Source of the DNA: an uncultured Rubritalea sp.
GTDB taxonomy: Bacteria; Verrucomicrobiota; Verrucomicrobiia; Verrucomicrobiales; Akkermansiaceae
Assembly (NCBI GenBank): GCA_937132085.1
Contig: CAKZNV010000117.1
Coordinates: 1-48,702 of the forward strand
Reading direction: 5' to 3'
DNA: 48,702 nt
Both the position numbers and the translations under genes were made by a program. The notes beneath the pieces were generated by a model. That model was not told the DNA's origin, ran no database searches, and was given only the letters and a program-made list of their open reading frames with translations. How positions within the stretch are numbered: position 1 is the stretch's first letter; each line of letters begins with the position of its first letter. Shown one piece after another: positions 28,401 through 47,199 of the stretch.

Positions 28401-29338
28401 AAACATAAAAATTGCACTCCGCTAACGCTAGGACCGATAAGCTCTACTTTCACAGTGCTTCCTATAACGCCACCAGTCTCCCAAAACTCGCTCGCTTTCA
28501 CGTGAGTTCCATTAGTATGGAAATCCTGGCTAACAACAACAGCACCTGAGGCATCTAAAACGCTAACACGAAAATTACTAAGGCGATGTGCGTGGGAATT
28601 ACGATTGAAAAGCTCAACACGATCAATAAGTCGATCTTGCCCCAAATTCACCTGCCACCAGCTACCAGCTTCGTTCAGAGTGTGGGTGATAGCTCCATTT
28701 TCACCGCTGATACTACCATCTATAGCTCGACTTGCCGCTCCGCCCCACCCCGTGGATGACTGAGAAGCAGCTGCACTCTGATCAAGAGCCCAGTTAGTAA
28801 GACCAGCACCACCTGCATAAGACCAGCTTACACTAAGGTGGTCTCCACCTCCGCCTTCTTTATTCTGAGCCTCAACATAGTAACGCTGTCCAGCCTGTAA
28901 AATTACTGGAGCACTAGCTTGGTCACGACTTGTGCCGAAATCTCTGAAAGAGGTATAACCTTTATAATGAATCAACTCCTCCTTATTAAACTTACTTTCC
29001 CCATCGCTTAAAAACAAAGCGAAATGATCATCACCACTAGCCCAAAATCTATACTCACCCGTAACTGGGGCGACGATATATCCGCGAAGTCGCTGACTAT
29101 ATTGCTCAGCAACATTTTGTGGAGCTTCCAACGAAGTCAAATCACTTTGCAAACTAGAAGCTTGATAAAATGCATCTTGAGACCATGAGTAATCCAAATC
29201 ATTTCGAGCCGACATATTATACCATATATCTCTAGTCACCTTACCAGCAACACCGGCGGGCTCGCTAGATTGAGAAAATCCAGTTTGGCATAACACTGGC
29301 GTAAAAGCAAAAGTAAGGAATAGTTTTTTGTGTGACAT
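25406..29338 (-). CDS. Large secreted PA14 / discoidin / Ca-repeat adhesin-like protein
   Basis: A 1310-residue protein with a signal peptide (1-22). Domains in order: PA14 (about 30-178; RLRGYIVAPVTGEYRFWASGDD), F5/8-type C discoidin-like (about 182-325; GGAASRAIDGSISG, WWQVNLG, IDRVELFNR), a Ca-binding thrombospondin-3-like linker (NDELPDDWEVQHGFD, SDKDGITNLEEAGY), a second PA14 (about 405-570; RLRGYVTAPTSGNYRFWLSSSD), more Asp-rich repeats (DSDDDYLPDAWEAQYGL to DSDGNGVFDGS), then beta-sandwich modules to the end. PA14 and discoidin domains bind carbohydrates, so a glycan-binding surface protein is likely. No C-terminal sorting motif is seen. It is the first gene of the four-gene RHS locus. 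Confidence 0.88.
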   Translation of the reverse strand: MSHKKLFLTFAFTPVLCQTGFSQSSEPAGVAGKVTRDIWYNMSARNDLDYSWSQDAFYQASSLQSDLTSLEAPQNVAEQYSQRLRGYIVAPVTGEYRFWASGDDHFALFLSDGESKFNKEELIHYKGYTSFRDFGTSRDQASAPVILQAGQRYYVEAQNKEGGGGDHLSVSWSYAGGAGLTNWALDQSAAASQSSTGWGGAASRAIDGSISGENGAITHTLNEAGSWWQVNLGQDRLIDRVELFNRNSHAHRLSNFRVSVLDASGAVVVSQDFHTNGTHVKASEFWETGGVIGSTVKVELIGPSVSGVQFLCLGEVQVLGRANSADAYQAREIVPGAVLESYAGSLNDQDNDELPDDWEVQHGFDPTQYQGVVFAPFADSDKDGITNLEEAGYSFNPFESDSLDGHLTMERWTGIQKYNVPELLASDAFYGQPEKRKTVSTAHFTEIGAYSGARLRGYVTAPTSGNYRFWLSSSDGSELWISSDDSKYKKRKIAAMGPALGTGHGIVSWSSNLWDNYAGQMSEEIYLEAGQKYFLEMLTQQGHAGGFHVSAAWAPPGQARVVLPLSAISSYGVESEDSDDDYLPDAWEAQYGLSITDNGAVDRLHEGENGDFDSDGLTNRLEYLAGTDPTSADSDGNGVFDGSQYDNSGSGDSVQDYPVGTFVNNLNIHSFSNIAGEWNPSSSGIVSDSLVSAAQWSFDAPHSGHWLLRIDTKLLQTSLSTEKVPVRVLIDGVLRGDFQLDFGSTSSKLVNVLSQDLAAGPHTVTIEINNILSHRSIAIQSIELLDPSGDDLDGNNIPDWLENTLEKRNFVNVYSPSSLTSPAFLEGQSDLVDQTILNAVAVQSSVGVNHYYTNLTLSETGATSFDIDFANGMIESGAITWDVTNLHAMDSIVIRKNDSLKLNATPLNGSTGNAVALTINKDTAYTEFADFQGADYGLWTAEGDAFGVAPALASATGHNWNVIGNKSANSYISAGNSDLGLGKLTSPEFTITQNYIHFRISGGKHPKLERVKLLDATTNEILRTATGLNTTVSRNDLWDVIALKGRSVKIEIEDSYYGSYGWINCDHITFSDIAESPVSLDPNNSAFNEVSYPLASDADYQVHQFTEAGTFIVASDDGNQVANLRVIVKEADTDVQIKDFILGGVERLAFDRYDISYGVSFDGGSHLEYIARNLDYDNLNVAFATRAAGESKVAVRLYTDGPIISTKSINVFDVAGSFRNDSASATLSSDWPGYYVVTSPVTAIGLPAGGSVKISIFRAGVTFLDGSKTKILTAADFVNGRYDAQYLFPENMQGGFCHTYSYFDRNGNQL

Positions 29339-29528: not shown

Positions 29529-30335
29529 TTACTTGTCGTGGCCTTTTAGCTTGAGTGACTTCTTGCTTTCCTTGTTGAGGAAGTCGTTGAAGTCTTTTTG
29601 AGAGATGACCTCCATCATGGCTTTCATGTTAGCGTGGTCACTTCCACAGAGCTGGCCACAGACTACTGATGTAATCATCTCTTCTTTAGGGATGAACCAC
29701 ATTGGGATGTCCTTACCAGGGATGGCATCCTGCTGGATACGCATTGGGATGATAGAGAAGTTATGGATCACGTCAGTAGAGGTCACCTGAAGGATCACAG
29801 GGCGTCCTACTGGGATCTTAAGAGTAGATGAAGTGAAGTCATCATATCCGTAAGGATCTGTAGGGTCAAGGCAAGGGTCACCTTTTACTTTAGCAAGTGT
29901 GCGGTCGATGAAGCCAAACTTTTTGTCTGTGCCTGCGTAATGGAAGTTCCATGCGAACTGGTTACCAATGGCTCTTACACGCACTGGGTTCTGGCCTTTT
30001 ACATCTGCGTAATCATTGGTGCGCTCAGCCCATAGCGGGAAAGCGAATCCGAGTAGTAGAACTGCCTCAATGACAACCACACCGATTTCTAGGTGAGTAG
30101 AAACGTGGTTCTCAACTCCATGGTAAGAAGCTGTAGGGTTCTTCTTATGCCAGAACTTGAAAAGACTGATGAGGAAGAATAGAGTCCAACCTACGAATAG
30201 GGCAATCATGAGCCAAGTCACAACGTCGATCATATGGCCGACAGTGTCACCGTGAACAGAGTAGTTCTTAGGCATTCCCATCCACTCTGCAGGTGAGAAT
30301 GAAGCTAAGGTGTTTATAATGCTAGATGATAACAT
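29529..30335 (-). CDS. coxB: Cytochrome c oxidase subunit II with CuA site
   Basis: A 268-residue subunit II. Two transmembrane helices (about 35-58 and 83-102) are followed by a periplasmic cupredoxin domain. All main CuA ligands are present: His191 (DVIHNFSI), Cys226 and Cys230 (CGQLC), His234 and Met237 (SDHANM). A Gln replaces the usual Glu between the two Cys; that residue binds through its backbone, so the centre should form. No haem-binding C-terminal extension exists, so this is aa3-type rather than caa3-type. It accepts electrons from cytochrome c and passes them to haem a in CoxA. Unusually, it is the last gene of the operon, behind coxD and two tiny membrane-protein genes, whereas coxB often comes first. 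Confidence 0.95.
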   Translation of the reverse strand: MLSSSIINTLASFSPAEWMGMPKNYSVHGDTVGHMIDVVTWLMIALFVGWTLFFLISLFKFWHKKNPTASYHGVENHVSTHLEIGVVVIEAVLLLGFAFPLWAERTNDYADVKGQNPVRVRAIGNQFAWNFHYAGTDKKFGFIDRTLAKVKGDPCLDPTDPYGYDDFTSSTLKIPVGRPVILQVTSTDVIHNFSIIPMRIQQDAIPGKDIPMWFIPKEEMITSVVCGQLCGSDHANMKAMMEVISQKDFNDFLNKESKKSLKLKGHDK

Positions 30336-30841: not shown

Positions 30842-31192
30842 TTAACCTTTGCCGAATTCAGGCATCATTCCCTCAAATGTAATCGGGTCTAGGAATGCAA
30901 ATGCGAAGAGCAGAATGAGAACAACTCCGAAGAATAGCGCTCCGAGGAAAATCCAGTAGATTGACTTCTTCTCGTGGTTAAGGTGCATGAAGATCAGTGC
31001 TACTAAACTAGCCTTGAACGCTGCAATAGCAATACCGATGATCGCATCCACGTAGTCAAATCCATGCCCACCGAAGTCGAGTATAGGTTGTGTCGCTACG
31101 AGATACGTTATTACGGTGAAAACAAAGAGTAGAGCTCCAATGTATGTGTAGAGCTTTACTGCTTTCTTAATTTCTTCTGGTGAGTTAGCCAT
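30842..31192 (-). CDS. coxD: Cytochrome c oxidase subunit IV (CoxD-type)
   Basis: A 116-residue membrane protein with three predicted helices (about 14-31, 43-65 and 72-97). The second and third enclose the family-like stretch GIAIAAFKASLVALIFMHLNHEKKSIYW, typical of small prokaryotic subunit IV proteins. It supports assembly or stability of the oxidase and has no redox cofactor. It follows coxC by 41 nt. Confidence 0.88.
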   Translation of the reverse strand: MANSPEEIKKAVKLYTYIGALLFVFTVITYLVATQPILDFGGHGFDYVDAIIGIAIAAFKASLVALIFMHLNHEKKSIYWIFLGALFFGVVLILLFAFAFLDPITFEGMMPEFGKG

Positions 31193-32990: not shown

Positions 32991-34853
32991 TTAGTGCTCT
33001 TTTTTCTCTGCGATACCTGCGTCGAGATCAGCAGAGGTATCTGCCTTAGGCTCATGCCACTGTGGGTAGTAGTCTTCCTCACAGTCAGGACGGCTGTATT
33101 CGTATGGTCCACGGTAGACAGCCACATCGAATGTGAAGTTACCATGTCCAGGAGGCGTTGGTGTAGCCCATTCGAGAGTTGTTGCATTCCATGGGTTATC
33201 ACTTTCCACTTTCTTGCCCATTTTCCAAGCAGTGAAGAGGTTGATGATGAAGGGAACTTGTGCAAGTGCTAGAAGGAATACTGATACAGACATGAGCTCG
33301 TTGAGTCCAATGTATTCTCTAACAGTGTTACCGAATACGTCCTCAGAACCTTCAGGAGCCATGTAGGCATCACCACCATTATACCAACGACGGTGGAATC
33401 CAGCCATACCCTGAATGAGCATTGGGAAGAACACGAGATTGATGAAGATGAGTGATGGCCAGAAGTGGAGATGACCGAGCATTCTGTTCATGTAACGGCC
33501 AAACATCTTAGGATACCAGTAGTAGATACCTGCGAAGAGTCCGAAGAGAATACCAGGAGCTACCACATAGTGGAAGTGACCGATCACGTAGTAAGTATCG
33601 TGAAGGTGAAGGTCAACAAGGTTGAATGCTAGTGGAAGACCAGTGAGTCCGCCGATACCGAACATCGGGAGGAACGCACATGCCCACATCATTGGCATCG
33701 TGAAACGGATGGATCCGCCCCAGAGTGAAATTAGCATCGCTGTGATCAGCACCACGGATGGCACCGAGATCAGCACTGTAGTCGTCTGGAAGAAGGTAGA
33801 AACTGAGCTACCCATACCAGTGAGATACATGTGGTGAGCCCATACGATGAATGAAAGGAATCCAAGAACGAGCACCGCGTAGACCATGGACTTGTAGCCC
33901 CAGAGTGGTTTACGTGTGTTAGCAGGGATAATTTCCGCCACACATGCGATCGATGGTAGTAGGAGAACATACACCTCAGGGTGACCGAGGAACCAGAAGA
34001 GGTGCTGGAACAGTAGTGGAGAACCACCACCTGCAAAGCCTTCGATACCTTCGCCACTGACTAGACCAGTAGGCTGGAAGAATGATGAACCGAATGTGCG
34101 GTCAACTACCTGCATGATACCAGCTACTTCGAGTGGTGGGAATGCGAGAAGGAGAAGGAAACCAGTGACAAGCATTGCCCATACGAAGAACGGTAGGCGC
34201 ATCCATGTCATGCCCTTAGCACGAAGGTTAATAATGGTGGTGATAAAGTTCACCGATCCGAGAAGTGATGAGGAGATCAACATCACGAGGCCGAGTAGCC
34301 ACTGAGTCTGTCCTGTGAAGAATTGGTTCGGATGCTGAGCGTCTGCTAGTGAGGAAAGCGGCGGATAGTTCGTCCATCCTGACTTCGCTGTTCCAGACTC
34401 TAGGAAGAATGATCCACACATCATGATACCACCGATGAGGTAGAGCCAGTATGAAGCACAGTTCAGCTTAGGGAATGCCATATCTGGCGCACCAATCTGA
34501 AGCGGAGTCACGTAGTTACCAAAGGCACCGAAGCCTAGTGGCACAACACCGAGGAAAACCATGATAGTTCCGTGCATAGCACCGAACATGTTATATGTCT
34601 CACCAGTGACTTTACCGTCAGTGAGCCAGCGGCCCTGCCAGTTGTCACTGAATACCCAGCTCATCCAGGTCGGAACTGGCTCATTTGGATAGGCAATACT
34701 CCAGCGCATCATCATCATGAGGAAGAATCCAAAGAGGAGGAAGAGTAGAGCAGTAATACCATACTGCAGACCGATCATTTTGTGGTCAGTCGAGAAAATA
34801 TATTTCTGCCAGAATGGCGGATTGTGGTGATCGTGATGTTCGTCAGCGCTCAT
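32991..34853 (-). CDS. coxA: Cytochrome c oxidase subunit I (A-type haem-copper oxidase)
   Basis: The catalytic, proton-pumping subunit, 620 residues with at least 12 helices. All six ligand histidines are present: His94 (haem a, AMHGTIM), His291 with cross-link Tyr295 (GHPEVYVLLLP), His340-His341 (WAHHMYL) for CuB, and His426 and His428 (IGHFHYV) for haems a3 and a. The HDTYYV segment precedes them. Reduction of O2 to water is therefore expected here. The chain is longer than the roughly 530-550 of simple A-type enzymes because of periplasmic loops (about 50-85 and 485-515) and a hydrophilic C-terminal tail. It follows the monohaem cytochrome c gene by 47 nt. Confidence 0.97.
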   Translation of the reverse strand: MSADEHHDHHNPPFWQKYIFSTDHKMIGLQYGITALLFLLFGFFLMMMMRWSIAYPNEPVPTWMSWVFSDNWQGRWLTDGKVTGETYNMFGAMHGTIMVFLGVVPLGFGAFGNYVTPLQIGAPDMAFPKLNCASYWLYLIGGIMMCGSFFLESGTAKSGWTNYPPLSSLADAQHPNQFFTGQTQWLLGLVMLISSSLLGSVNFITTIINLRAKGMTWMRLPFFVWAMLVTGFLLLLAFPPLEVAGIMQVVDRTFGSSFFQPTGLVSGEGIEGFAGGGSPLLFQHLFWFLGHPEVYVLLLPSIACVAEIIPANTRKPLWGYKSMVYAVLVLGFLSFIVWAHHMYLTGMGSSVSTFFQTTTVLISVPSVVLITAMLISLWGGSIRFTMPMMWACAFLPMFGIGGLTGLPLAFNLVDLHLHDTYYVIGHFHYVVAPGILFGLFAGIYYWYPKMFGRYMNRMLGHLHFWPSLIFINLVFFPMLIQGMAGFHRRWYNGGDAYMAPEGSEDVFGNTVREYIGLNELMSVSVFLLALAQVPFIINLFTAWKMGKKVESDNPWNATTLEWATPTPPGHGNFTFDVAVYRGPYEYSRPDCEEDYYPQWHEPKADTSADLDAGIAEKKEH

Positions 34854-34900: not shown

Positions 34901-35668
34901 TTATTCTGCTTCGATGATCTCGCCAGTCTTCTTGTTGATGACTGTGCCAGCTGCGAAGAAATCTCCTGTAACTTGCTTCTTTTTGAGAGGTTCTAGTTCA
35001 GCGGCGGTGCATGCACCTACTACTGATCTACCTTCACTTGCTTCATTGATCGCAGCTATCTGCTCCAATGTGTAGAGTTTGCCCACTTCATTACCAAAGC
35101 TGTTCTGGATGTAGTAGATGATAGAAGCCGTTTCGAGATCGCTGTATGAACCGCCTACAGCAGGCATTGTTCCAGTGGATGCTTTACCTTTCACTATGAT
35201 CTCACCGCCAAGGCCGTTTTTAAGAATAAATGCAGGAACATATGGTGAATCTACGACCCATGATGAACCAGCTAGTGGAGGACAGCTTGCACCGTTACCA
35301 TCAGCACCGTGACAACCGGCACATGAACCACTATAGAGCTCTTTACCCTTAGCCATGTAGACTTGCTCTACAGGTCCCTGAGGCACTGGTGGTGGGCCAC
35401 CTTCCCCTTCAGCTTGGATGTAACCAGACTTCACAAACTCATCGTATCCGAAAAGGTTGTTGCTCTTGAAGAGAACACTACCAGCGATGATAGCAATGAT
35501 AGAACCTGCAATGAAGAGCCAGACTGAGACTGGCTCTAGGCCGTTCTCTCTGAGCTGTTGCTCACGTGATGCAGCAGACGCAGAGCGTGATACCGCAGCA
35601 TGTTGCTGAGCCACATTGGTGGATTCCTCCAGATCTGGTTTCTTAGGATCTATTGGTTGGACAGACAT
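34901..35668 (-). CDS. Membrane-anchored monohaem cytochrome c (CcoP-position)
   Basis: A 255-residue protein: a hydrophilic cytoplasmic start, one transmembrane helix (about 47-67) and a periplasmic class I cytochrome domain with the haem motif CAGCH (116-120) and likely Met ligand in TGTMPAVGG. It follows the CcoO-like gene, the place of ccoP in cbb3 operons, but true CcoP carries two haems and this has one. A late C-terminal extension (about 205-255) contains a further Cys. It could pass electrons from the CcoO-like protein or alternative complex III to CuA of CoxB. It may be the physiological donor to the aa3 oxidase; direct evidence is lacking. Confidence 0.88.
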   Translation of the reverse strand: MSVQPIDPKKPDLEESTNVAQQHAAVSRSASAASREQQLRENGLEPVSVWLFIAGSIIAIIAGSVLFKSNNLFGYDEFVKSGYIQAEGEGGPPPVPQGPVEQVYMAKGKELYSGSCAGCHGADGNGASCPPLAGSSWVVDSPYVPAFILKNGLGGEIIVKGKASTGTMPAVGGSYSDLETASIIYYIQNSFGNEVGKLYTLEQIAAINEASEGRSVVGACTAAELEPLKKKQVTGDFFAAGTVINKKTGEIIEAE

Positions 35669-35735: not shown

Positions 35736-36500
35736 TTACTTGCTCCCCTTCTCCTTGTCACGCCCATATTGCATGGATGCTGGAACTTCTCCATCGCGCT
35801 TTAAATTTATTAGGTAGCTCATGATTGCTCTACCTCTGTCGTTAGGGACTACTTCTACTCCATCGACCACTGCAACTGCTAGGTCTGACTCTTGCCCCAT
35901 CACACCAGCTTCATCGAAGAAACGTGAGTTAGAAGGACAGTTAGTCTTAAGCATGTGCTTCTTTGCATTGATTTGTGGATCGAAAAGGTGTCTATAAACG
36001 GCTAGTTCAATATTGAAAGCGTGCTCACCGAGCTTATCGATGTCGAGCCCGAGCTCTTCAGCCTTCGCTTTGTTATAAGCTGCTGCTTTCACTTCGAGCC
36101 TGCGTCCGTAGTTACCAAGATCTGGTCCGATGCGAGACTCACCGATGTTAGCGTAGTCTTCACCATTGTAATCGAAAGGCATTGAGATACGACGTGTGTC
36201 ACCTCTCACTTCGTCTTTAGCAAATCCACCTTGGCCTTCACGGAAAACATCGTTTCCTGCGTAAGTCGGGCGAGTCACCTGAGTGTGGCATACTGCACAG
36301 CCTTCTTGACGATAAATAAGTGAACCTGTTCCGCGTCTTCCGCTATACATAGGCTGGAATACTCCAGTCTTTTCGTCTTTGGATTCGTCGAACTGAGGAG
36401 CCTCTTGGCTACGCATAGATGCGAATGGCACAGCGAGCATGATGAGCCATGGGATTCCAAAGCTGGCAATCAGTCCGTAAAAGAATGTTTTAACTGTCAT
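35736..36500 (-). CDS. CcoO-like membrane-anchored cytochrome c
   Basis: A 254-residue protein with one N-terminal transmembrane helix (5-25) and a periplasmic monohaem domain. YRQEGCAVCHTQVTRPT places CAVCH at 68-72 and matches the YxxGCxxCHSQxxRP pattern of CcoO/FixO. Further CcoO-like cues are RIGPDLGNYGRR and a HLFDPQ segment; the axial Met may be the one in KKHMLKTN, which differs from the usual MPxYPWL. The gene lies 30 nt behind the CcoN-like gene, the normal ccoNO order. With the CcoN-like protein unable to reduce oxygen, its likely role is electron relay within the respiratory assembly. Confidence 0.9.
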   Translation of the reverse strand: MTVKTFFYGLIASFGIPWLIMLAVPFASMRSQEAPQFDESKDEKTGVFQPMYSGRRGTGSLIYRQEGCAVCHTQVTRPTYAGNDVFREGQGGFAKDEVRGDTRRISMPFDYNGEDYANIGESRIGPDLGNYGRRLEVKAAAYNKAKAEELGLDIDKLGEHAFNIELAVYRHLFDPQINAKKHMLKTNCPSNSRFFDEAGVMGQESDLAVAVVDGVEVVPNDRGRAIMSYLINLKRDGEVPASMQYGRDKEKGSK

Positions 36501-36530: not shown

Positions 36531-38042
36531 TTAGTGAGTTGAAAGATTTGAATCTAGGTTTTCTAGCTTATCAAGATCTCCTTCAGGTCCGTGTGGACTA
36601 CCGTGAGCGTGGCGCACGAGGAGTGTAGGATGACTGCTACGGCGGCCAAGTCTGAGCCACATGAGTAGTAGGTGACAGCAGAAGAAGAATGTAGCGATGA
36701 GAATAAAGATAAAGCCAGTCGTCAAACTTACAGCGTAAGGGAACAGACGAGTGTAAGCACTGTCTTGTGACTCATTCACATTCTCAAGAATCTCACCGTG
36801 GAGGAAACCACCACCGAGTGTGTAGAAGATAGCGATGAAGAGCACACCGTAGACTGTGAGCCAGAAGTGCTGACGGATAAGACCTACTGAGATCCACTCA
36901 CGGTTCGTGATACGTGGAACGATAAAATAGATAGCTCCATACATGCACATGCTGAAGAATCCGAGTAGACCAGTGATCTCAAGACCATACTGAGCTGTTG
37001 AGAACTGTGTGTATTTCATCACACCAGGAACTGACATCAAAGCACCGAGGGCAGCGAAAACGAGAAGTCCTACTACACCTGCCACTGTGAATCTGAGTGA
37101 TGGTGAGTGAGCCATTGCATCTTTCTTAGCAGAGGCTGTTTTGAGAATGTTGATCGCTACTGCTATCGCTGGGATGAGCATAAGAATCGCGGCACCTGCT
37201 GAGAGGAACTGCATGAACGATGGGATAGGTGCACCCATGAGACGCTGGAATCCTGTCCAAGGTCCAACAATCGCCAATGCCCAGAATCCGAATAGAGCGA
37301 GATTGTATGAGTAGACTGGACGGCCAGTTACTTTAGGAGCGATGTAGTAAGCACTAGCTATAGCTACTGGAGTGAAGAAGAGGAACATCAGCGCTGAACG
37401 ATACCAAGCTGAAGCTGCTGTCGCCATCATTTCATGACCTTCGCCAAGATAACCGATAGCGAAGAGGTGACCTGAGATAAATACCCATGGGAACCAGAAA
37501 AGTGTGGCCATTAGATACCACTGAGAAATATAGATGTGACCACCACGGCGAACACGGAAGGCAATCACTGCCCAGATGCCGATGAAAAAGTAGATAGCAA
37601 GAAGAACTGGCCAGATGAACTTAGGGAAATACATCCATGCTACACCAGAGCCTTCGCCCATAAGAATACGGATTGTGCCGATAGCAATACAAGCATTCCA
37701 GACGTGACCTGCTGTAAGGATGAGTCCTGATGCCTTACACTCCTGACGTGACAGTCTAGACATGAGCCAGATAATCACACCGAAGGCAGCTTGAGCTCCC
37801 CATCCGTAGATCATTGTGCTCAAGTGAGCCTGATAGAGAACACCTGTGTTTAAGAATGAGCAACCATCAAGGAAGCCAGGTGAATGCACTTTTGCTGAGA
37901 AAAGGATGCCGAGCACGAGCGATACCGCTAGCCATGCTGCTCCACTAGTGAAGAAGAACATCACAGGGTGGCGCAATGAGCGGTCAATATCCGCTCTAAG
38001 CTGGGTGTCTTCTAGATAAGGACTGTTAGTTTCCGTTGACAT
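36531..38042 (-). CDS. CcoN-like (cbb3 subunit I-like) protein lacking metal ligands
   Basis: A 503-residue, roughly 12-helix membrane protein that aligns well with cbb3 subunit I: GGHIYISQWY, then AWYRSALMFLFFT, PKVTGRPVYSYNLALFGFWAL, KYTQFSTAQYGLEITGLLGF, YFIVPRITNREW and GLIRQHFWLTVYG. CcoN has six key histidines. Only the first (His73 in YQAHLSTMIYGWG) is kept. The CuB His of the WYGHN motif is Ser216 (AWYRSA). The HH pair of the GPHHLHY motif is replaced in VGPWTGFQ (about 260-265). The HVH triplet before the GALGW motif is LEI (354-356, LEITGLLGF). It therefore should bind neither CuB nor haem b3, and low-spin haem is doubtful. A structural or electron-bridging role is inferred. The C-terminus is His-rich and cytoplasmic. 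Confidence 0.93.
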   Translation of the reverse strand: MSTETNSPYLEDTQLRADIDRSLRHPVMFFFTSGAAWLAVSLVLGILFSAKVHSPGFLDGCSFLNTGVLYQAHLSTMIYGWGAQAAFGVIIWLMSRLSRQECKASGLILTAGHVWNACIAIGTIRILMGEGSGVAWMYFPKFIWPVLLAIYFFIGIWAVIAFRVRRGGHIYISQWYLMATLFWFPWVFISGHLFAIGYLGEGHEMMATAASAWYRSALMFLFFTPVAIASAYYIAPKVTGRPVYSYNLALFGFWALAIVGPWTGFQRLMGAPIPSFMQFLSAGAAILMLIPAIAVAINILKTASAKKDAMAHSPSLRFTVAGVVGLLVFAALGALMSVPGVMKYTQFSTAQYGLEITGLLGFFSMCMYGAIYFIVPRITNREWISVGLIRQHFWLTVYGVLFIAIFYTLGGGFLHGEILENVNESQDSAYTRLFPYAVSLTTGFIFILIATFFFCCHLLLMWLRLGRRSSHPTLLVRHAHGSPHGPEGDLDKLENLDSNLSTH

Positions 38043-38083: not shown

Positions 38084-38533
38084 TTATTCAGGGTTAGTTG
38101 GGGCTACTGGCTCAGCTGGTGCAGCAGGAGCGGGTGTTACTGGTGCAGGAGCGGGTGTTACTGTCGGAGCCTCTGCTGGTGCTTCTTCTACTGGAGCTGC
38201 CGGAGCAGGAGCGGGTGTTGGTTCCGCTGCTGGAGCCATTTCAGCTGCTTCAGGTGAAGCCACTGCTGATGCGGCTGGTGCTGCGTTCAGAGTATTCTGT
38301 AGTTTATCGAAGACGCTAGTAGGATCTACTTTAAGTGCAGCTGCTTGAGCAGCCTCTACTTTATCCTTTTTCACGAGTCTCTCTTGTCCACGCTCTTTAT
38401 CTACATCAGTCATCTCGTCATTGACGAATGTTCTGAGGAAGAAGCATGCTATTCCGAAGACTACGAAAAGTGCGAGTCCCCACCAGAAGGTGTTGAAGCG
38501 GCGTAGTGGTGTGTCACGTAGATTAGGTTCCAT
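38084..38533 (-). CDS. Single-pass membrane protein with Pro/Ala-rich tail
   Basis: A 149-residue protein: short N-terminus, one transmembrane helix (about 16-34: WWGLALFVVFGIACFFLRT), a charged stretch, then from about residue 80 a low-complexity tail of Pro, Ala, Val and Glu (PTPAPAPAAPVEEAPAEAP). Three exact 15-nt DNA copies of GCAGGAGCGGGTGTT (38124-38138, 38145-38159, 38205-38219) encode part of the tail, so it grows or shrinks by repeat slippage. It lies between actF and the CcoN-like gene. Some alternative complex III operons encode a small one-helix subunit (ActG) near this place, and this could be a counterpart, but I see no sequence proof. The tail may span the periplasm as a flexible linker. 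Confidence 0.75.
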   Translation of the reverse strand: MEPNLRDTPLRRFNTFWWGLALFVVFGIACFFLRTFVNDEMTDVDKERGQERLVKKDKVEAAQAAALKVDPTSVFDKLQNTLNAAPAASAVASPEAAEMAPAAEPTPAPAPAAPVEEAPAEAPTVTPAPAPVTPAPAAPAEPVAPTNPE

Positions 38534-38561: not shown

Positions 38562-39959
38562 TTAGTTATGAAGGTTAGCAGACTCTAGAAGACGTGGGTC
38601 ACGGTTCGGGTAGAGGTTTGCACTGCTGATGTTTCTGAGGAACATGAAGACGAAGAACGCTCCTACTGTGATGAATGCTACAATGTCGCCAAGATAAGCT
38701 GCATGATCTACGAAGAGCTCAGGGTGTCCAGCCTTAGTAGTAAGTGATGGTCCACGCTCTGCGATCACTGCGATGTAGAGATCTACGATGTGCATGATGA
38801 GAATGTAGATACAGATAGGCACTACGATCTTGGTCACCTTCTTCGCATAGTGTGGAAGAAGTAGCACGAAAGGAACAGCGAAGTGTAAGAATGGAAGTGA
38901 CAGACTCCATACCCACCATTGATCAGAGTTTCTGAGGAGGAAGTAAGAAGTTTCCTCTGTGATGTTCGCATACCAGATTAGCATGAACTGAGCGAATGAT
39001 ACGTATGCCCAGAAGATAACGAAAGCATGCATGAGCTTGCCCATGATGTGGTAGTGTTCCTTGCTCGTCACTGTCTTAAGGTAGCCCTTAGAGCGTAACC
39101 AAGTCAGTGTAAGAATGAGGACTGCCATTGAGTTCAGCGCACAACCTGCGAAGAAGTAAACTCCATACATTGTTGAGAACCACTTGTAATCAAGCGCCAT
39201 CATGAAATCCAGAGCGATGAATGTAGCGACTACTGCGAAGATCGGCATGATGATACATGAATACTGTCTCGCCTTGATCAGACGCTCACAGCCAGGATTA
39301 GGATCAGTGTCCTGAGCGATAGAGATCTTACGGAGAATGTAGATACCACCACCAAGAAGAACGAAGAAACCAATCACTCGGCCAAGCCAGAATGGAAGGT
39401 TCATATACCAATACTTCACATGAAGTAAGTGTGCGTAGTGATCAGACTCAACGCCATTTGCATGAGTCACCTCAGCTTCGTGATGAAGAGCGTGTCCAGC
39501 ACCTGCGTAGGCAGAAGGAGCTACGTATTCTTCACCAGATACTTCTGCGTTATGCTTCACATCCGCAGCTGTGATGTCACGGTGCATATCCATCCACTCA
39601 TACAGATCGTTCTGCACGCTTGGGATCATTAGCGGGATCGCGATGATTGCGAAGAATGGGAATACAAATCCTAGGTTTTCCATCAGACGACGGACAGATA
39701 CGCCCCAGCCTGAGTTAGTCACATGGTGAAGGATCATCCAGAATGCACCACCAAGGGTGATCGAGATGAAGAACATGAACGCAAATACCCATGAGTAAGC
39801 AAAGCCACCCTTCCAAGTATCGTTCATGAATAGGAATGCACTAGCTACAGCTCCAATGATGAAGATGATGAGTGCGATGAATTTAGGTCGATTGATGTGT
39901 TTAGCATCGATCTTCTCCCCGTTTAGAGGGATGTCCTTTGATGTGACGTTGTGTGCCAT
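38562..39959 (-). CDS. actF: Alternative complex III subunit ActF
   Basis: A 465-residue integral membrane protein with about ten helices, belonging to the ActC/ActF (NrfD/PsrC-like) family. It starts with a charged N-terminus, then IALIIFIIGAVASAFLFMN. Between helices 3 and 4 is a periplasmic, His-rich insertion (GHALHHEAEV, about 150-175). The segments PFWLGRVIGFF and FVLLLPHYAKKV follow. In ACIII, ActF sits next to ActC as a second membrane subunit without cofactors and may contribute to proton handling. It is positioned after actE, the standard order actABCDEF. Confidence rests on operon order and topology more than on motifs. Confidence 0.9.
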   Translation of the reverse strand: MAHNVTSKDIPLNGEKIDAKHINRPKFIALIIFIIGAVASAFLFMNDTWKGGFAYSWVFAFMFFISITLGGAFWMILHHVTNSGWGVSVRRLMENLGFVFPFFAIIAIPLMIPSVQNDLYEWMDMHRDITAADVKHNAEVSGEEYVAPSAYAGAGHALHHEAEVTHANGVESDHYAHLLHVKYWYMNLPFWLGRVIGFFVLLGGGIYILRKISIAQDTDPNPGCERLIKARQYSCIIMPIFAVVATFIALDFMMALDYKWFSTMYGVYFFAGCALNSMAVLILTLTWLRSKGYLKTVTSKEHYHIMGKLMHAFVIFWAYVSFAQFMLIWYANITEETSYFLLRNSDQWWVWSLSLPFLHFAVPFVLLLPHYAKKVTKIVVPICIYILIMHIVDLYIAVIAERGPSLTTKAGHPELFVDHAAYLGDIVAFITVGAFFVFMFLRNISSANLYPNRDPRLLESANLHN

Positions 39960-40011: not shown

Positions 40012-40644
40012 CTATTTCGCAGCCTCTGTCTTAGAAGCTTCCTGAAGCGCTTTCACGTAGGCCACTGTTGCCCAGCGGTCATAGAGAGTCATGTCTGAGC
40101 CCATCTGACCCATTAGCCCTCTACCTTTGTTGAGCACGTAGTAAATATTGCCTTCACCGAGTGTCGATGTTGTGAGACTTGCCACTGTATTGAAACCATA
40201 TTCGGAAACGATGCCTTTGCCGTCGCCGGACTCACCGTGACAGATAGCACACTTGTAGCCGAACACTTCTTTTCCTCTAGTAAGGAAAGCTGTCTGGTTT
40301 TCTAGGTCATTCTTAAGCTCAAGCTCCTCAGGGAAACCTGTGCCGTAGTTAACACCGTCAATAAGTCCAGTGTGGAGATAAGTAGTCTTGTTACCGTAGC
40401 CGCTTAGCTCAGACTTAGCATCTGGAGACAGAGTGTGACCGAAAGGAACAGTGTGATCAACAGGCTTCTGTGAACCCATGTCGTTCCTGAAGAAGTCATT
40501 TGCAGACTGCGGATTGATACGATCTTGATCATCCATGTCTGGGAAGACGCGGATTGGTGTTTGCTTGAATTTATCACCACGGAATCCGAAGACGCTGATG
40601 ACGAAGACGATTACGAGTAAGTAGGATAGAAAGAAATAGCGCAT
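40012..40644 (-). CDS. actE: Alternative complex III monohaem cytochrome c subunit ActE
   Basis: A 210-residue cytochrome with an N-terminal signal/anchor helix (3-20) and a class I haem domain: CAICH at 132-136, followed by GESGDGKG and a likely axial Met in GRGLMGQMGSDM. ActE is the exit point for electrons from quinol oxidation in alternative complex III, handing them to a soluble or membrane cytochrome c or directly to an oxidase. The lipobox Cys known for some ActE proteins is not visible. It follows actD by 21 nt. Confidence 0.93.
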   Translation of the reverse strand: MRYFFLSYLLVIVFVISVFGFRGDKFKQTPIRVFPDMDDQDRINPQSANDFFRNDMGSQKPVDHTVPFGHTLSPDAKSELSGYGNKTTYLHTGLIDGVNYGTGFPEELELKNDLENQTAFLTRGKEVFGYKCAICHGESGDGKGIVSEYGFNTVASLTTSTLGEGNIYYVLNKGRGLMGQMGSDMTLYDRWATVAYVKALQEASKTEAAK

Positions 40645-40665: not shown

Positions 40666-41220
40666 TTAGTCTTCTTCCTCCACGAGTTCGATGTTTTTAC
40701 CACCAGCTTCTTCGAGAAGAGCCTTGGTATCTTCTGCCGAGAAGTTCGGGTCACGTGCTTCCACAGCGATGAAGAATCCATCATCTGTAGAGCGGTGGAA
40801 CTGACGACTTGCGAACAGTGGGTGGTTCAGTCTAGGAAGACCCATGAGGCCTAGTAGACAGAACAGAACCGTGAAGCCTGAGAATAGAATCGTAAGCTCA
40901 AACATGATCGGGAAGAACGCCGCGGTGGTGAAAATGTTCGCCGGCTTAGCCTGAACGATCGTTGGGTAAATGATTACCTGTGTGATGTAGGCCAAGCTGA
41001 ATCCAGTCAGAAGACCAGTAGATCCACCGAAGAATACGAAATAAGGGAGGATAGAACGGCGAAGTCCCATCGCATCATCCAGTCCGTGGATTGGATAAGG
41101 TGAATAGCAGTCCCATTTCTTGAATCCGGCATCACGCACTTTCTCTGCACCCTTGTAGAGTGCTGATGCGCTTTCGAATTCGGCTAGATAACCGTAAACT
41201 CTTTTTACTGATGTGCTCAC
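40666..41220 (-). CDS. actD: Alternative complex III subunit ActD (DUF3341)
   Basis: A 184-residue protein with the ActD pattern: an N-terminal alpha/beta part (RVYGYLAEFESASALYKGAEKVRDAGF, followed by YSPYPIHGLDDAMGLRRS), then two transmembrane helices (about 59-82 and 96-128) and a C-terminal FFIAVEARDPNF strand region. The N-terminal domain lies in the cytoplasm and binds beside ActC; no cofactor. The start codon is GTG at 41220. It sits 43 nt behind actC. Confidence 0.93.
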   Translation of the reverse strand: MSTSVKRVYGYLAEFESASALYKGAEKVRDAGFKKWDCYSPYPIHGLDDAMGLRRSILPYFVFFGGSTGLLTGFSLAYITQVIIYPTIVQAKPANIFTTAAFFPIMFELTILFSGFTVLFCLLGLMGLPRLNHPLFASRQFHRSTDDGFFIAVEARDPNFSAEDTKALLEEAGGKNIELVEEED

Positions 41221-41263: not shown

Positions 41264-42757
<1,494 letters not shown>

Positions 42758-42813: not shown

Positions 42814-45800
42814 TTAGTGCATGTGGATCGTTGCTCTACCTACCTTAGTTGCTGACTTCATAGCAGGGTTCGGGTTCTTCACACGTGCCATGTAAGAGGT
42901 GCGTGGTCGGGTGCCGATGTAGTTAAGTAGGTCGTAAGTTCTTGGATTTGCGTAAGTCCCTTGGATGTTAGCTTCAAGATTCTCCTCCTTGATCTTCTTA
43001 GTCTTCTGAATGTCATCATCAGGGTTAAGAATGTTACCAAAGACGATCGCTCCAGCTTCACAAGCATCCTGACAGGCTACCTTCACGCTGTTCGCAGGTG
43101 CCATGAGCATTTTGTTCATGTCTTGCTTGCCATCAGCATTGAATTCATAAGATGGCTTGCCTGACTTCTGCACAGCCTTCTTAACATTCGCTTTAGCATC
43201 GATCTTAGCTGACTGGAGTCTCTGCACACAGTATGTGCACTTCTCCATCACACCACGCATACGAACTGTTACGTTCGGGTTACGCTGGAGTGACTTAGAG
43301 TCTCCTACCTGCTTCTCACCGAGAGGTCCTTTGTAGAGGTTCTTGTGAAGAAGTGGGTTACGCTTGTTGTAGTCAAAGAAGTTGAATCGACGTGCCTTGT
43401 ATGGGCAGTTATTCGCACAGTAACGTGTTCCAATACAACGGTTATAAGCCATTGAGTTGAGTCCGTCTTCTGTGTGAACTGTTGCGTTCACTGGGCAAAC
43501 TGTCTCACATGGAGCGCTCTCGCACTGCACACATGCTACCGGGTTAGGAATCACTTCTAGAGGAGTATTCCAGTCCTGAGATGGGTTAGAAGGAGCTTCT
43601 CCGAGCTTAAGATCGTCTGCATGATCAGCATGACCTGGCTCAGCAAAGTAACGATCCATTCTGATCCAGTGCATCTCACGGCCCATTGCCACCTGAGTTT
43701 TACCCACAACTGGGATGTTATTCTCAGCCTGACAAGCCACGAGACAGGCACTACAACCTGTGCATGTGCTCAAATCGATAGACATTGCCCACTGATGAGA
43801 CTGATCCCAAAGGTGCTTCTTGCCATCACGGTCTTCAAACTTGTAGAGCGAGATATTCTGTGGAACGTGTGAATCAAGTCCCTGCTTAGCAACATTGTCT
43901 AGCTGCTTAGCGTAGTCTTGAGTGTGGCCACCAGTTTTCACTGCTGGCAATGTAGAAATCTCTCTTGCGAGCGCACGTCCATACATTGAGTGGTGCTCCT
44001 GAGTTCTCGCTAGCTTGTAACGCTTGTCCTCGATCTTCTCAACAGTCACCTCAGTGTTTGCTGCGAAGTAATCTTGGCCATTTCTCAATGGATAAGCATC
44101 AAATCCGGTATTCACACCGACACTTGAGACATTCTTAGAGCTGTCCTTATCGTAGTCGATCGCTCCACCTCTGAATTCTTCAGCCCAGTGTTCGTCATAG
44201 CCTTGGCCATATCCGAGTGGCAGCGAGATCACATTATCAGCCATGCCGAATGCTACGATCACTACTGCGTCTACTGATTTACCTCCTACGGAAACTTTCA
44301 CCATAGGACCGAAGAGACTAGGTCCGCCTCCGTCTTGTGGCACTGGAGTAGTTTTTACACCTGTCTCAGTTGCGATTCCTAGGTTTGCCCACCATGCTTT
44401 TTCTAGCTTCTCTAGTTCTACGAGATCTTCGTAGAGGCCGAGGTCTTTAGCTGTCTGTGGTGACATGTAAGCCGCGTTATCCCATGTCAACTTAGACATT
44501 GGATCTGGCGCTTCTTGTAGCCATGAGTTGTTGATATAGCGTCCGTCGTAGACAGAATAGTCAGTCACGAACACCACGTCTGGTTTAGCCGGTGAAGTTG
44601 GCGCCGCTACTACTGTGAGAGCTGCTGCCACACCACTGCCGTTACCAGCTGTTGCGTATTTGTAATCAGCTGTGAACCCTGTTCTTACTAGATCCTTAAA
44701 GTTTGTCTTATTAGCAAATGCATCGCTAGATACCTTAACCTTCTTTTCAAACGTAGTCTTCACTGCTGTGTAAGCTGGTGAGACTGCTTTGTCGTCTGAC
44801 AGTGAGTTATGAAGCTCGATCTTATCGCCAAGTAGGCCAGTCAAAAGCTCGAATTCCTGGATACCACCGTAGAGCGGAAGGATGAGTGGCTGAACCAATG
44901 TGTAGCGACCTTCGTCACCACTAAATCCGTCACTCCAGCTCTCTAGGTAGTGAGCTGCTGGGATGTGAAGATCCGCAGCATTCGCAGAAGCATTCACATG
45001 AATCCCCCACTGCACTACGTTCTTGCTCTTCACGATCTCATTGAAATCTTTACCACCAAGTGATGGATTCTCATACACTGGGTTTGCTGGTGTTGCGAGG
45101 ATCACTGTATCGAGTGAACCTGCATCCTTAGCGAAATCTTCGATAGATCCGAGTTGCGCATGCTTCTTCTCAGTGCGTGCTACCAGAACTCCTGTCTGAT
45201 AAGCGCCAATCTTGCTGTTGATTGCATAAACTGCATCGTGTAGCTCTTTGTCATATCGACTACCGAGAAGCACTACGCCTCCGCCAGTTTTAAGATCTGC
45301 TGCACATGCTTTGATCCATGCTGTTTTATCTGCATCGAATTTACCACTAGCTGCACCACCACTGATCTCAGCTGCGAGATCCTGAATGAATGCTGCGATC
45401 TGACTAGGAGCCAGAGGTGCTCGGTGATCCGCCATACCACCTGTGACAGTGTAAGTCGGCTCTACGGAATAAAGTCTGTTGAGCTCTTTAGCGTATTTGA
45501 TTGGATCTTCGTTGTAGTCAGCACCTTCTGGGCGACGTCTATCGTAGAATCCTTTTGTGTCTCCCTGCTTATCTAGATCTAGGAAATCACTATCGAGTGA
45601 AAGAATACGCTTCGCCTTAGAAAAGTCTGCTTTTACTACAGCATGCTTACCAAAGATCTGAGCTGCTGACGCCCTGCGTCCTGCACCTGCTAGAGCTTCG
45701 TAGCCGTAGAACTTAGCGTTAGTATACTTCGCTCTAAGTTGAGTGATGAGCTCAGTTCTTGTTAGTGAGTCGTCCTCACCAAATACGAAACCGATTTTAC

Positions 45801-46347
45801 CGCTCTTAGTAAACTTCTCTAGCTTCTCGATTGCCGCCGCCTTCGTGATCTTCTCACCTTTAGCGAGGAAATTACGTGAACGAGCAGGATCGTAAAGATC
45901 AAGAATGCTTGCCTGTGCCATTGAACCAACACCAGCTGTCCCAGCTAGCTTGTTTGGCTCTAGCTTAGTAGGGCGACCTTCGTGATACGTAGCTACTAGT
46001 GAAAGCGCTCCATTTGCTGAAGGCATTGCAGTCGCGTAGTAAGATGGCTTACCTGGGATGCTCCACTCTACCGAGTTGATGTAAGGGACGATCAGCGCCT
46101 CTGGACGACGACATGCAGCAAGGCCGAAACCTGCTAGAGCAGTCGACGCTCCCATAAGCTTTAGGAAACTACGTCTTGTAGTCTCCTGATCTTCTTCGTC
46201 TCTCATCTGCTCTGATGCTCTAGGGAACTCTCTGTCTACCCACTGGCGAAGGCCAGGAGTATCTTCTAGTTCTCCAGCGCTACGCCAGACTTTATTGCCT
46301 AAGTCCTCTGCTGGGACTTCAGGGTGATTCCATTTACGTTTACTCAT
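42814..46347 (-). CDS. actB: Alternative complex III iron-sulfur subunit ActB
   Basis: An 1177-residue fusion of a molybdopterin-oxidoreductase-like domain (about 80-780; it binds no Mo in this family) and a ferredoxin-like domain (about 800-1177). The N-terminus has a Tat-type motif RRSFLKLMG (58-66) followed by GFGLAACR, where LAAC looks like a lipobox with Cys79. The ferredoxin part carries CTGCSACLVAC (about 860), CVQCESAPCETVC (about 938), CIGTRYCANNC (about 969), CTYC (about 1034) and CQDAC (about 1090). That totals 15 Cys, as needed for three [4Fe-4S] and one [3Fe-4S] cluster. It carries electrons from ActC to the haem subunits. It follows actA after a 55-nt gap. Confidence 0.96.
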   Translation of the reverse strand: MSKRKWNHPEVPAEDLGNKVWRSAGELEDTPGLRQWVDREFPRASEQMRDEEDQETTRRSFLKLMGASTALAGFGLAACRRPEALIVPYINSVEWSIPGKPSYYATAMPSANGALSLVATYHEGRPTKLEPNKLAGTAGVGSMAQASILDLYDPARSRNFLAKGEKITKAAAIEKLEKFTKSGKIGFVFGEDDSLTRTELITQLRAKYTNAKFYGYEALAGAGRRASAAQIFGKHAVVKADFSKAKRILSLDSDFLDLDKQGDTKGFYDRRRPEGADYNEDPIKYAKELNRLYSVEPTYTVTGGMADHRAPLAPSQIAAFIQDLAAEISGGAASGKFDADKTAWIKACAADLKTGGGVVLLGSRYDKELHDAVYAINSKIGAYQTGVLVARTEKKHAQLGSIEDFAKDAGSLDTVILATPANPVYENPSLGGKDFNEIVKSKNVVQWGIHVNASANAADLHIPAAHYLESWSDGFSGDEGRYTLVQPLILPLYGGIQEFELLTGLLGDKIELHNSLSDDKAVSPAYTAVKTTFEKKVKVSSDAFANKTNFKDLVRTGFTADYKYATAGNGSGVAAALTVVAAPTSPAKPDVVFVTDYSVYDGRYINNSWLQEAPDPMSKLTWDNAAYMSPQTAKDLGLYEDLVELEKLEKAWWANLGIATETGVKTTPVPQDGGGPSLFGPMVKVSVGGKSVDAVVIVAFGMADNVISLPLGYGQGYDEHWAEEFRGGAIDYDKDSSKNVSSVGVNTGFDAYPLRNGQDYFAANTEVTVEKIEDKRYKLARTQEHHSMYGRALAREISTLPAVKTGGHTQDYAKQLDNVAKQGLDSHVPQNISLYKFEDRDGKKHLWDQSHQWAMSIDLSTCTGCSACLVACQAENNIPVVGKTQVAMGREMHWIRMDRYFAEPGHADHADDLKLGEAPSNPSQDWNTPLEVIPNPVACVQCESAPCETVCPVNATVHTEDGLNSMAYNRCIGTRYCANNCPYKARRFNFFDYNKRNPLLHKNLYKGPLGEKQVGDSKSLQRNPNVTVRMRGVMEKCTYCVQRLQSAKIDAKANVKKAVQKSGKPSYEFNADGKQDMNKMLMAPANSVKVACQDACEAGAIVFGNILNPDDDIQKTKKIKEENLEANIQGTYANPRTYDLLNYIGTRPRTSYMARVKNPNPAMKSATKVGRATIHMH

Positions 46348-46402: not shown

Positions 46403-47158
46403 TTAACGGTGACAAGTAAAGCAGCTCTCCTTAGGGCGAACATTCCAGCGTTCCTTAAGCATCAGACCCATAGCCTTCTGCGCATCGTCTTCTTTACTTA
46501 GATCTAGATCTTCCGTCTCTGCGCTACCTGCGATGAACTCCTGAATCGAGCTCTTAGCGCTCGGGTTCTTCTCGATGAACTTTCGGACATCATACTCTAG
46601 GTTGAAAACTTCTTCTAGCGGACGCAGAGCGTCTTCTGGAGCACGGTGACAATCAATACATTGCCCCATACTTAGTGGCTTAGCGTGGAATACAACACGC
46701 ATCTTATTCACTTCACCGTGACACTCGATACATGAAACACCTCTGTTCAGGTGAGCTGAGTGATTAAAGTAAACATAATCAGGAGCCTTAGTGACTCTTA
46801 CCCACTGAACCGGCTTATCATTATCGATCGCATCCATCAAAGGAGCTAGTCTAGGGCTATCAGATTTGATGTTCCCCTTAGTTTTGTGGTGACAGTTAGC
46901 ACAAGTGTTAGCGCTTGGAATATTCGCATGACCAGACTTCTCTACGAAGCTGTGACAGTGACGACAATCTAGACCTAATTGGTTCACATGAAGCTCGTGA
47001 TCGTAAGGAATCGGCTGATCTGGCATATAGCCAACTCGCTGAGCCTTAGGCGTAGCATAGTAAGTAACTGCCAATACTACCCCGATAGCAAGTGCGCCGA
47101 TACATACTGCGATCTTTAGGGGTAAAAAGTTTGTGTAACGTGGGAAAATGTTAGCCAT
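46403..47158 (-). CDS. actA: Alternative complex III pentahaem cytochrome c subunit ActA
   Basis: The first gene of the 17.6-kb respiratory operon. From the ATG at 47158 it encodes 251 residues with one N-terminal transmembrane helix (about 14-34) and five haem motifs: CRHCH (65-69), CANCH (86-90), CIECH (143-147), CIDCH (167-171) and CFTCH (246-250), the last one residue from the C-terminus. This matches the pentahaem ActA family. A longer reading frame from TTG at 47173 adds five residues, but the ATG is the more natural start. Promoter and palindrome lie 40-70 nt upstream. Confidence 0.95.
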   Translation of the reverse strand: MANIFPRYTNFLPLKIAVCIGALAIGVVLAVTYYATPKAQRVGYMPDQPIPYDHELHVNQLGLDCRHCHSFVEKSGHANIPSANTCANCHHKTKGNIKSDSPRLAPLMDAIDNDKPVQWVRVTKAPDYVYFNHSAHLNRGVSCIECHGEVNKMRVVFHAKPLSMGQCIDCHRAPEDALRPLEEVFNLEYDVRKFIEKNPSAKSSIQEFIAGSAETEDLDLSKEDDAQKAMGLMLKERWNVRPKESCFTCHR

Positions 47159-47199
47159 ATGGTTTCGTTGCAAGTCGTTGCTGTCAGTGCTGTGAGGTG

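Follow-up and report, generated by a model that had tools for sequence, protein, structure and literature searches.

A cbb3 oxidase subunit I homologue without its catalytic ligands in alternative complex III operons of Verrucomicrobiota

The operon and its oxidase-like subunit

The window, by which we mean the whole stretch of 48,702 nucleotides of an uncultured Rubritalea sp. that we analysed, carries on its minus strand an operon with the gene order ActA-ActB-ActC-ActD-ActE-ActF-small TM protein-CcoN*-CcoO-like-mono-haem cytochrome c-CoxA-CoxC-CoxD-CoxB (Table 1), where CcoN* stands for a ligand-less homologue of cbb3 oxidase subunit I. The ActA-F gene set of alternative complex III (ACIII) is complete, and the genes of an A-type oxidase are co-located with it. 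As the cytochrome c in the CcoP position (CytcP) has one CXXCH, there is no di-haem CcoP in this operon. Two very long open reading frames (17946-24380, 2144 aa; 25406-29338, 1310 aa) lie downstream. In five other loci (L072, L074, L077, L078, L081) the small protein encoded between ActF and CcoN* is fused to an additional cytochrome c domain with one or two haems.

Table 1. Genes of the operon in the window, listed in the order of transcription.
Feature	Position	Strand	Evidence or remarks
ActA, multihaem cytochrome c	46403..47173	minus	
ActB, iron-sulfur subunit (4Fe-4S)	42814..46347	minus	
ActC, NrfD-like	41264..42757	minus	match 6f0k_C, E 7e-175
ActD	40666..41220	minus	PF11821
ActE, mono-haem cytochrome c	40012..40644	minus	
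ActF	38562..39959	minus	match 6f0k_F, E 3e-50
Small one-TM protein with Pro/Ala-rich tail, ActF/CcoN* interval	38084..38533	minus	
CcoN*, ligand-less cbb3 subunit I homologue, 503 aa	36531..38042	minus	ORF with ATG start, phmmer, PF00115, TIGR00780, AlphaFold2
CcoO-like membrane-anchored mono-haem cytochrome c	35736..36500	minus	CXXCH at 68-72; Cys188
CytcP, membrane-anchored mono-haem cytochrome c, CcoP position	34901..35668	minus	
CoxA, A-type oxidase subunit I	32991..34853	minus	histidine motifs intact
CoxC, 571 aa, COX3 domain interrupted by a soluble insert of ~365 residues	31234..32949	minus	
CoxD (COX4_pro)	30842..31192	minus	
CoxB	29529..30335	minus	CuA motif CGQLCGSDHANM

In the ACIII-aa3 supercomplex of Flavobacterium johnsoniae no CcoN/CcoO/CytcP module has reportedly been described. 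That supercomplex (6btm; Sun et al. 2018) and the window have ActABCDEF and an aa3 oxidase in common, the association in the window being predicted from gene order.

Residues 31-464 of CcoN* align by phmmer with the solved CcoN chains 9g6b, 8smr and 3mk7 (E 6.5e-31 to 1.2e-26), which bears out the homology that an earlier note on this DNA had claimed. The protein scores 122 with PF00115 and 114.8 bits with TIGR00780 (ccoN), the cutoff of which is 583. In 3mk7 numbering, the phmmer alignment retains one ligand histidine of the six, H60 (H73 in CcoN*), whereas H207 is replaced by S216, H257 and H258 by Q266 and R267, and H345 and H347 by L354 and I356; the active-site Tyr251 of helix VII is G260. 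The earlier note had counted five of the six histidines as replaced, with Ser216 in place of the WYGHN histidine and LEI in place of HVH. This count is exact, the catalytic tyrosine is absent in addition, and alignment with CcoN structures and homologues revealed no conserved set of six histidines. Its remark that the neighbours keep their ligands holds as well, as the CcoO-like protein retains its CXXCH and CoxA its histidines.

The AlphaFold2 model of CcoN*, for which the input alignment included 38 relatives, is a confident CcoN fold (pLDDT 87.6, pTM 0.88), and its top match in the PDB is 3mk7_A (TM 0.83/0.89). With this cbb3 CcoN of P. stutzeri it shares the fold, the length, the order of the 12 helices and a CcoO-like mono-haem cytochrome c partner; unlike the cbb3 oxidase, the CcoN* module is devoid of five of the six histidines, of the catalytic tyrosine and of ccoS, and has a mono-haem rather than a di-haem CcoP-like subunit. 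A different contig of the same genome encodes an ordinary fused CcoN-CcoO in which all seven residues, i.e., the histidines and the tyrosine, are present.

Two states of CcoN in the operons of the class

When one genome per species was scanned with an alignment of 8 rows, at least 80 loci came back; all those listed are Verrucomicrobiales-like, and from Verrucomicrobiota wherever the titles tell (Rubritalea, Roseibacillus, Haloferula, Persicirhabdus and Akkermansiaceae MAGs). Contigs of these Verrucomicrobiales that are long enough have the order ActABCDEF-CcoN*-CcoO-cytochrome c-CoxACDB, and histidine is absent from the positions of H258, H345 and H347 in all 81 sequences, those of the window and its 80 relatives. 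A phylum-wide search added members, and alignment revealed that some of these have every ligand. Across the class, ACIII-linked CcoN exists in two states: in 21 genomes all seven residues (H,H,Y,H,H,H,H) are retained, whereas in the full-length copies of 38 genomes at least four of the seven are lost. Both states share the order ActABCDEF-CcoN-CcoO-CytcP. The ligand-keeping C-type oxidases of the same class (L034-L046, L177-L182, L184, L185) occupy the operon position of CcoN* and are 33-39% identical to it, yet differ in that the six histidines, the tyrosine and ccoS are all present. One of these loci, L185 (G258), combines ligand-keeping CcoN, ccoS and CoxB-CoxA-CoxC in a single ACIII operon, possibly an intermediate state. 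At L065:9431-10468 (G078) a CcoN* of 346 aa is found with CcoO and cytochrome c, in a genome in which ActC was not found.

Among 53 ligand-less sequences Y251 is retained in none, H345 in one, H257 in two and H347 in three, and the replacement residues vary by family. W115, W213, G67, D20, W37, Y232, K237 and H392 are retained in 89-100% of the ligand-less copies. It is specifically the cofactor positions that are no longer conserved; the structural tryptophans and glycines still are, as are further residues of CcoN.

The states also differ in ccoS, the product of which is needed for insertion of b haems into the cbb3 oxidase of R. capsulatus (PMC10588857) and for an active cbb3 oxidase (PMC7558416). 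In ligand-keeping operons a frame of 65-122 residues directly upstream of ccoN matches FixS/CcoS, and this gene is additional to that of the small ActF/ccoN protein at the same place. An adjoining ccoS was detected in 13/13 ligand-keeping and 0/17 ligand-less cases of the first set, in 8/8 and 0/22 of a held-out set of 30 additional loci linked to ACIII in new genomes, and over both sets in 21/21 and 0/39 genomes; in the Verrucomicrobiales set it accompanies CcoN* in 0 of 81. As the held-out loci follow the pattern and seven of seven independent phylogenetic pairs agree (p 0.016), the haem-loading factor disappears together with the ligands. Judged by its sequence, CcoN* cannot build a haem b3-CuB centre, as the ligands and, in parallel, ccoS are gone.

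How often this happened depends on which genes are consulted. In the CcoN tree the ligand-less copies unite in one clade (90/92), with long branches and a program warning, which would agree with a single ligand loss and subsequent transfer of the altered ccoN-ccoO-cytochrome c block into the ACIII operons of other families. We give this history little credence, as long branches meet in that tree, the CcoN data leave the unity of family f5 unrejected (p 0.052), every transfer would have had to target the same operon place and remove ccoS, and, in a set of 40 genomes, a single ligand-less clade is strongly rejected by the ACIII genes that share these operons (delta lnL 278, p 7e-31); after this test a single origin was rejected as the main reading. 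Quick tree methods applied to ActA+B+C require 5 changes of state among 40 genomes and 8 among 68 genomes, 7 of the latter on well-supported branches, and these parsimony counts carry no direction. As the ligands are present in the outgroups of canonical CcoN, and repeated regain of seven residues and ccoS is implausible, the changes were most probably losses. Since the ACIII tree needs 8 changes and rejects one ligand-less clade, ligand loss appears to be recurrent across lineages. A tie between ligand loss and the gain of a neighbouring CoxA was likewise rejected, as no association was seen in independent pairs.

Terminal oxidases in genomes with and without the ligands

A COX1 of A type is present in 38/38 ligand-less as compared to 17/21 ligand-keeping genomes (Fisher p 0.013, uncorrected for relatedness). 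As two small ligand-keeping genomes, G001 and G146, encode neither a further COX1 nor a bd subunit I, their ACIII-linked protein is presumably the sole terminal oxidase. Two other kinds of COX1-like genes were encountered: closely spaced pairs of a degenerate protein of ~477 aa and one of 570-600 aa that looks like a NO reductase (G075, G091 with L146 and L147, and G275), and a CcoN-like protein of 444 aa with HH and HxH motifs that adjoins ABC transporter genes (L148:3947-5278, G099).

In reviews and genome papers the ACIII-adjacent gene of verrucomicrobial methanotrophs has been called a cbb3-type oxidase and tied to high O2 affinity (PMC8498564; PMC6688271; PMC10205796), and the published "cbb3-type cytochrome c oxidase" beside ACIII of these methanotrophs and of Opitutaceae (PMC8498564, PMC6688271) has the same gene place as CcoN*. 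Unlike the working high-affinity oxidase of the publications, the family f4 protein is devoid of the ligands, and its genome encodes no second protein of CcoN type: in G042, G054 and G072, which we take as verrucomicrobial methanotrophs by the marker pmoA, the ligand-less gene is the sole COX1 of CcoN type. In G042 a COX1 of 476 aa is of NorB type and lies beside a NorC-like gene, and the remaining ones are of A and B type by score and length. As no second CcoN-type gene is there to play the part, it is very probable that the published methanotroph "cbb3 oxidase" is no oxidase. Provided that the identification, which relies on pmoA and gene place, is correct, the statement on cbb3 and high O2 affinity in methanotrophs needs correction.

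Genus g2, a member of the same family as the window with genomes of 2.2-3.5 Mb, we infer to be Akkermansia. None of its 22 genomes has a PF00115 match, i.e., a haem-copper oxidase, and 13 of the 22 encode a fused CcoN*-CcoO-cytochrome c (L207, L208, L216-L228), in which an N-terminal membrane part precedes a CXXCHTQ of CcoO type and a cytochrome c domain. As the AlphaFold2 model of the fusion is poor (pLDDT 44), the homology of its N-terminus to CcoN* is concluded from an hhalign match (prob 96.9, E 1.4e-10, 106 columns) and from gene position: in each of four genomes that were compared (G021, G024, G111, G232), no more than a few kb separate the fusion from ActC. A bd oxidase subunit I is present in 12 of the 13 fusion genomes. 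These genes indicate that a genome can retain the CcoN*-CcoO-cytochrome c module while encoding no haem-copper oxidase, and nothing argues more strongly for a role of the module in ACIII rather than in the neighbouring aa3 oxidase. The placement between ACIII and the aa3 oxidase, as suggested in the earlier note, is not general, as CoxA is missing from most ligand-less operons outside Verrucomicrobiales and the methanotroph family, and genus g2 has its fused version and no haem-copper oxidase.

Function of CcoN* and its meaning for ACIII

We propose that CcoN* is probably a non-catalytic structural subunit of the ACIII assembly, likely to be free of haem b and copper, that carries a haem c electron-output module. 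In a working cbb3 oxidase electrons pass from the haems of CcoP to that of CcoO, then to haem b and finally to haem b3-CuB (PMC7876108). In the CcoN* module the haem b and haem b3-CuB stations would be unable to form and the c-type stations would stay; CXXCH is present in 111/111 CcoO and in every CytcP copy. The 12-helix body would be the membrane platform that anchors CcoO and CytcP, which would carry electrons outward from the menaquinol-oxidising ACIII, an assembly predicted from gene order. In the window the most likely acceptor would be CuA of the aa3 oxidase whose genes follow in the operon; in other genomes an unlinked oxidase of A type would take this part, and in genus g2 an acceptor that is not an oxidase. 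The ancestral module would have been a functional ACIII-linked C-type oxidase, whose active site may have been lost many times where an alternative terminal oxidase existed. Of the roles offered previously for a subunit that does not reduce oxygen, scaffold or electron bridge is still the best class, as no b3-CuB centre is possible, whereas we found no evidence for a quinone bridge.

One point that counts against this explanation resides in CcoO. The only Met that is invariant in canonical and ligand-keeping CcoO, presumed to be the axial haem ligand, is Cys188 in the window; Cys occupies this position in 72/80 Verrucomicrobiales and 13/13 g2 fusions, as compared to Met in 21/21 ligand-keeping copies. 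This exchange is the least expected point of the analysis. The Cys can be likened to the His/Cys haems of sulfur-oxidising cytochromes and suggests an altered haem potential, with possible repurposing; the potential may be too low for a simple relay to CuA. As the g2 module in addition exists without a haem-copper oxidase, it is conceivable, though rather unlikely, that CcoN*-CcoO*-CytcP is a repurposed periplasmic redox module of ACIII instead of a relay to an oxygen reductase, exchanging electrons between menaquinol and a non-oxygen acceptor or donor, e.g. sulfur compounds or peroxide.

Alternatively, CcoN* could be a cytochrome b that has no oxygen site but transfers electrons or reacts with quinone, its b-type haem still being bound by H73 together with a newly acquired partner. 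The histidine at the H60 position is retained in 75 of the 81 Verrucomicrobiales sequences, and family f6 (L033, L183) retains both low-spin haem histidines with the oxygen site gone. Yet in the lineage of the window the second low-spin ligand is replaced by a non-ligating residue in 81/81, H60 is retained in just 47% of the ligand-less copies overall, the Arg preceding its motif in 4 of the 53 ligand-less sequences, the H337 position is altered and ccoS is absent, making such a cytochrome improbable.

In place of the HH pair the 81 sequences have Q266 in 72 and K/R267 in 70, and together with the conserved H73 these residues also count against the proposed explanation, hinting that some specific function is left in Verrucomicrobiales. 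Charged and polar residues at the former CuB site could make CcoN* a proton- or ion-conducting subunit that couples ACIII redox chemistry to ion movement, and Y232 (Y223 of CcoN) is retained in 94% of the ligand-less copies. We consider this role quite improbable, as the replacements differ between separate losses (S-H, R-H, S-R, A-Q, A-T and others), which weakens the proton-handling unit of the earlier note as well, the Ser at the S240 position is retained in 25%, and ACIII already has membrane subunits in ActC and ActF.

That CcoN* is a pseudogene on its way to loss, to which the lost ligands, a rate of evolution somewhat above that of ligand-keeping copies (3.2 versus 2.3 within groups, relative to ActC) and the reduced G078 copy could point, is hardly credible and was rejected, as no internal stops occur among the ligand-less matches of the phylum searches, the operon position is common to 80 relatives, and dN/dS is well under 1, at 0.03-0.08 in close Verrucomicrobiales pairs (dS 0.05-0.85) and 0.15-0.19 in one pair each from families f4 and f5. 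The evolution of CcoN* is slightly relaxed yet far from neutral. The earlier note had held the gene to be intact and not decaying, and with a whole reading frame, purifying selection, a state common to 80 Verrucomicrobiales relatives and neither frame breaks nor neutral drift among them, we agree.

In the open literature we found no description of ACIII-linked CcoN copies that have lost their ligands. With CcoN* as a non-catalytic structural subunit, these operons amount to an experiment that nature has performed repeatedly, in which the core subunit of a redox enzyme was deprived of its active site yet remained part of the complex. This suggests that within ACIII assemblies CcoN has a structural role that is separable from oxygen reduction. 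When genes of Verrucomicrobiota, methanotrophs included, are annotated by family (ccoN, PF00115), too many are called high-affinity oxidases; the six histidines, the tyrosine and an adjoining ccoS provide simple markers of live and dead CcoN. Where the electrons of ACIII go if no oxidase gene is present thereby becomes a testable question.
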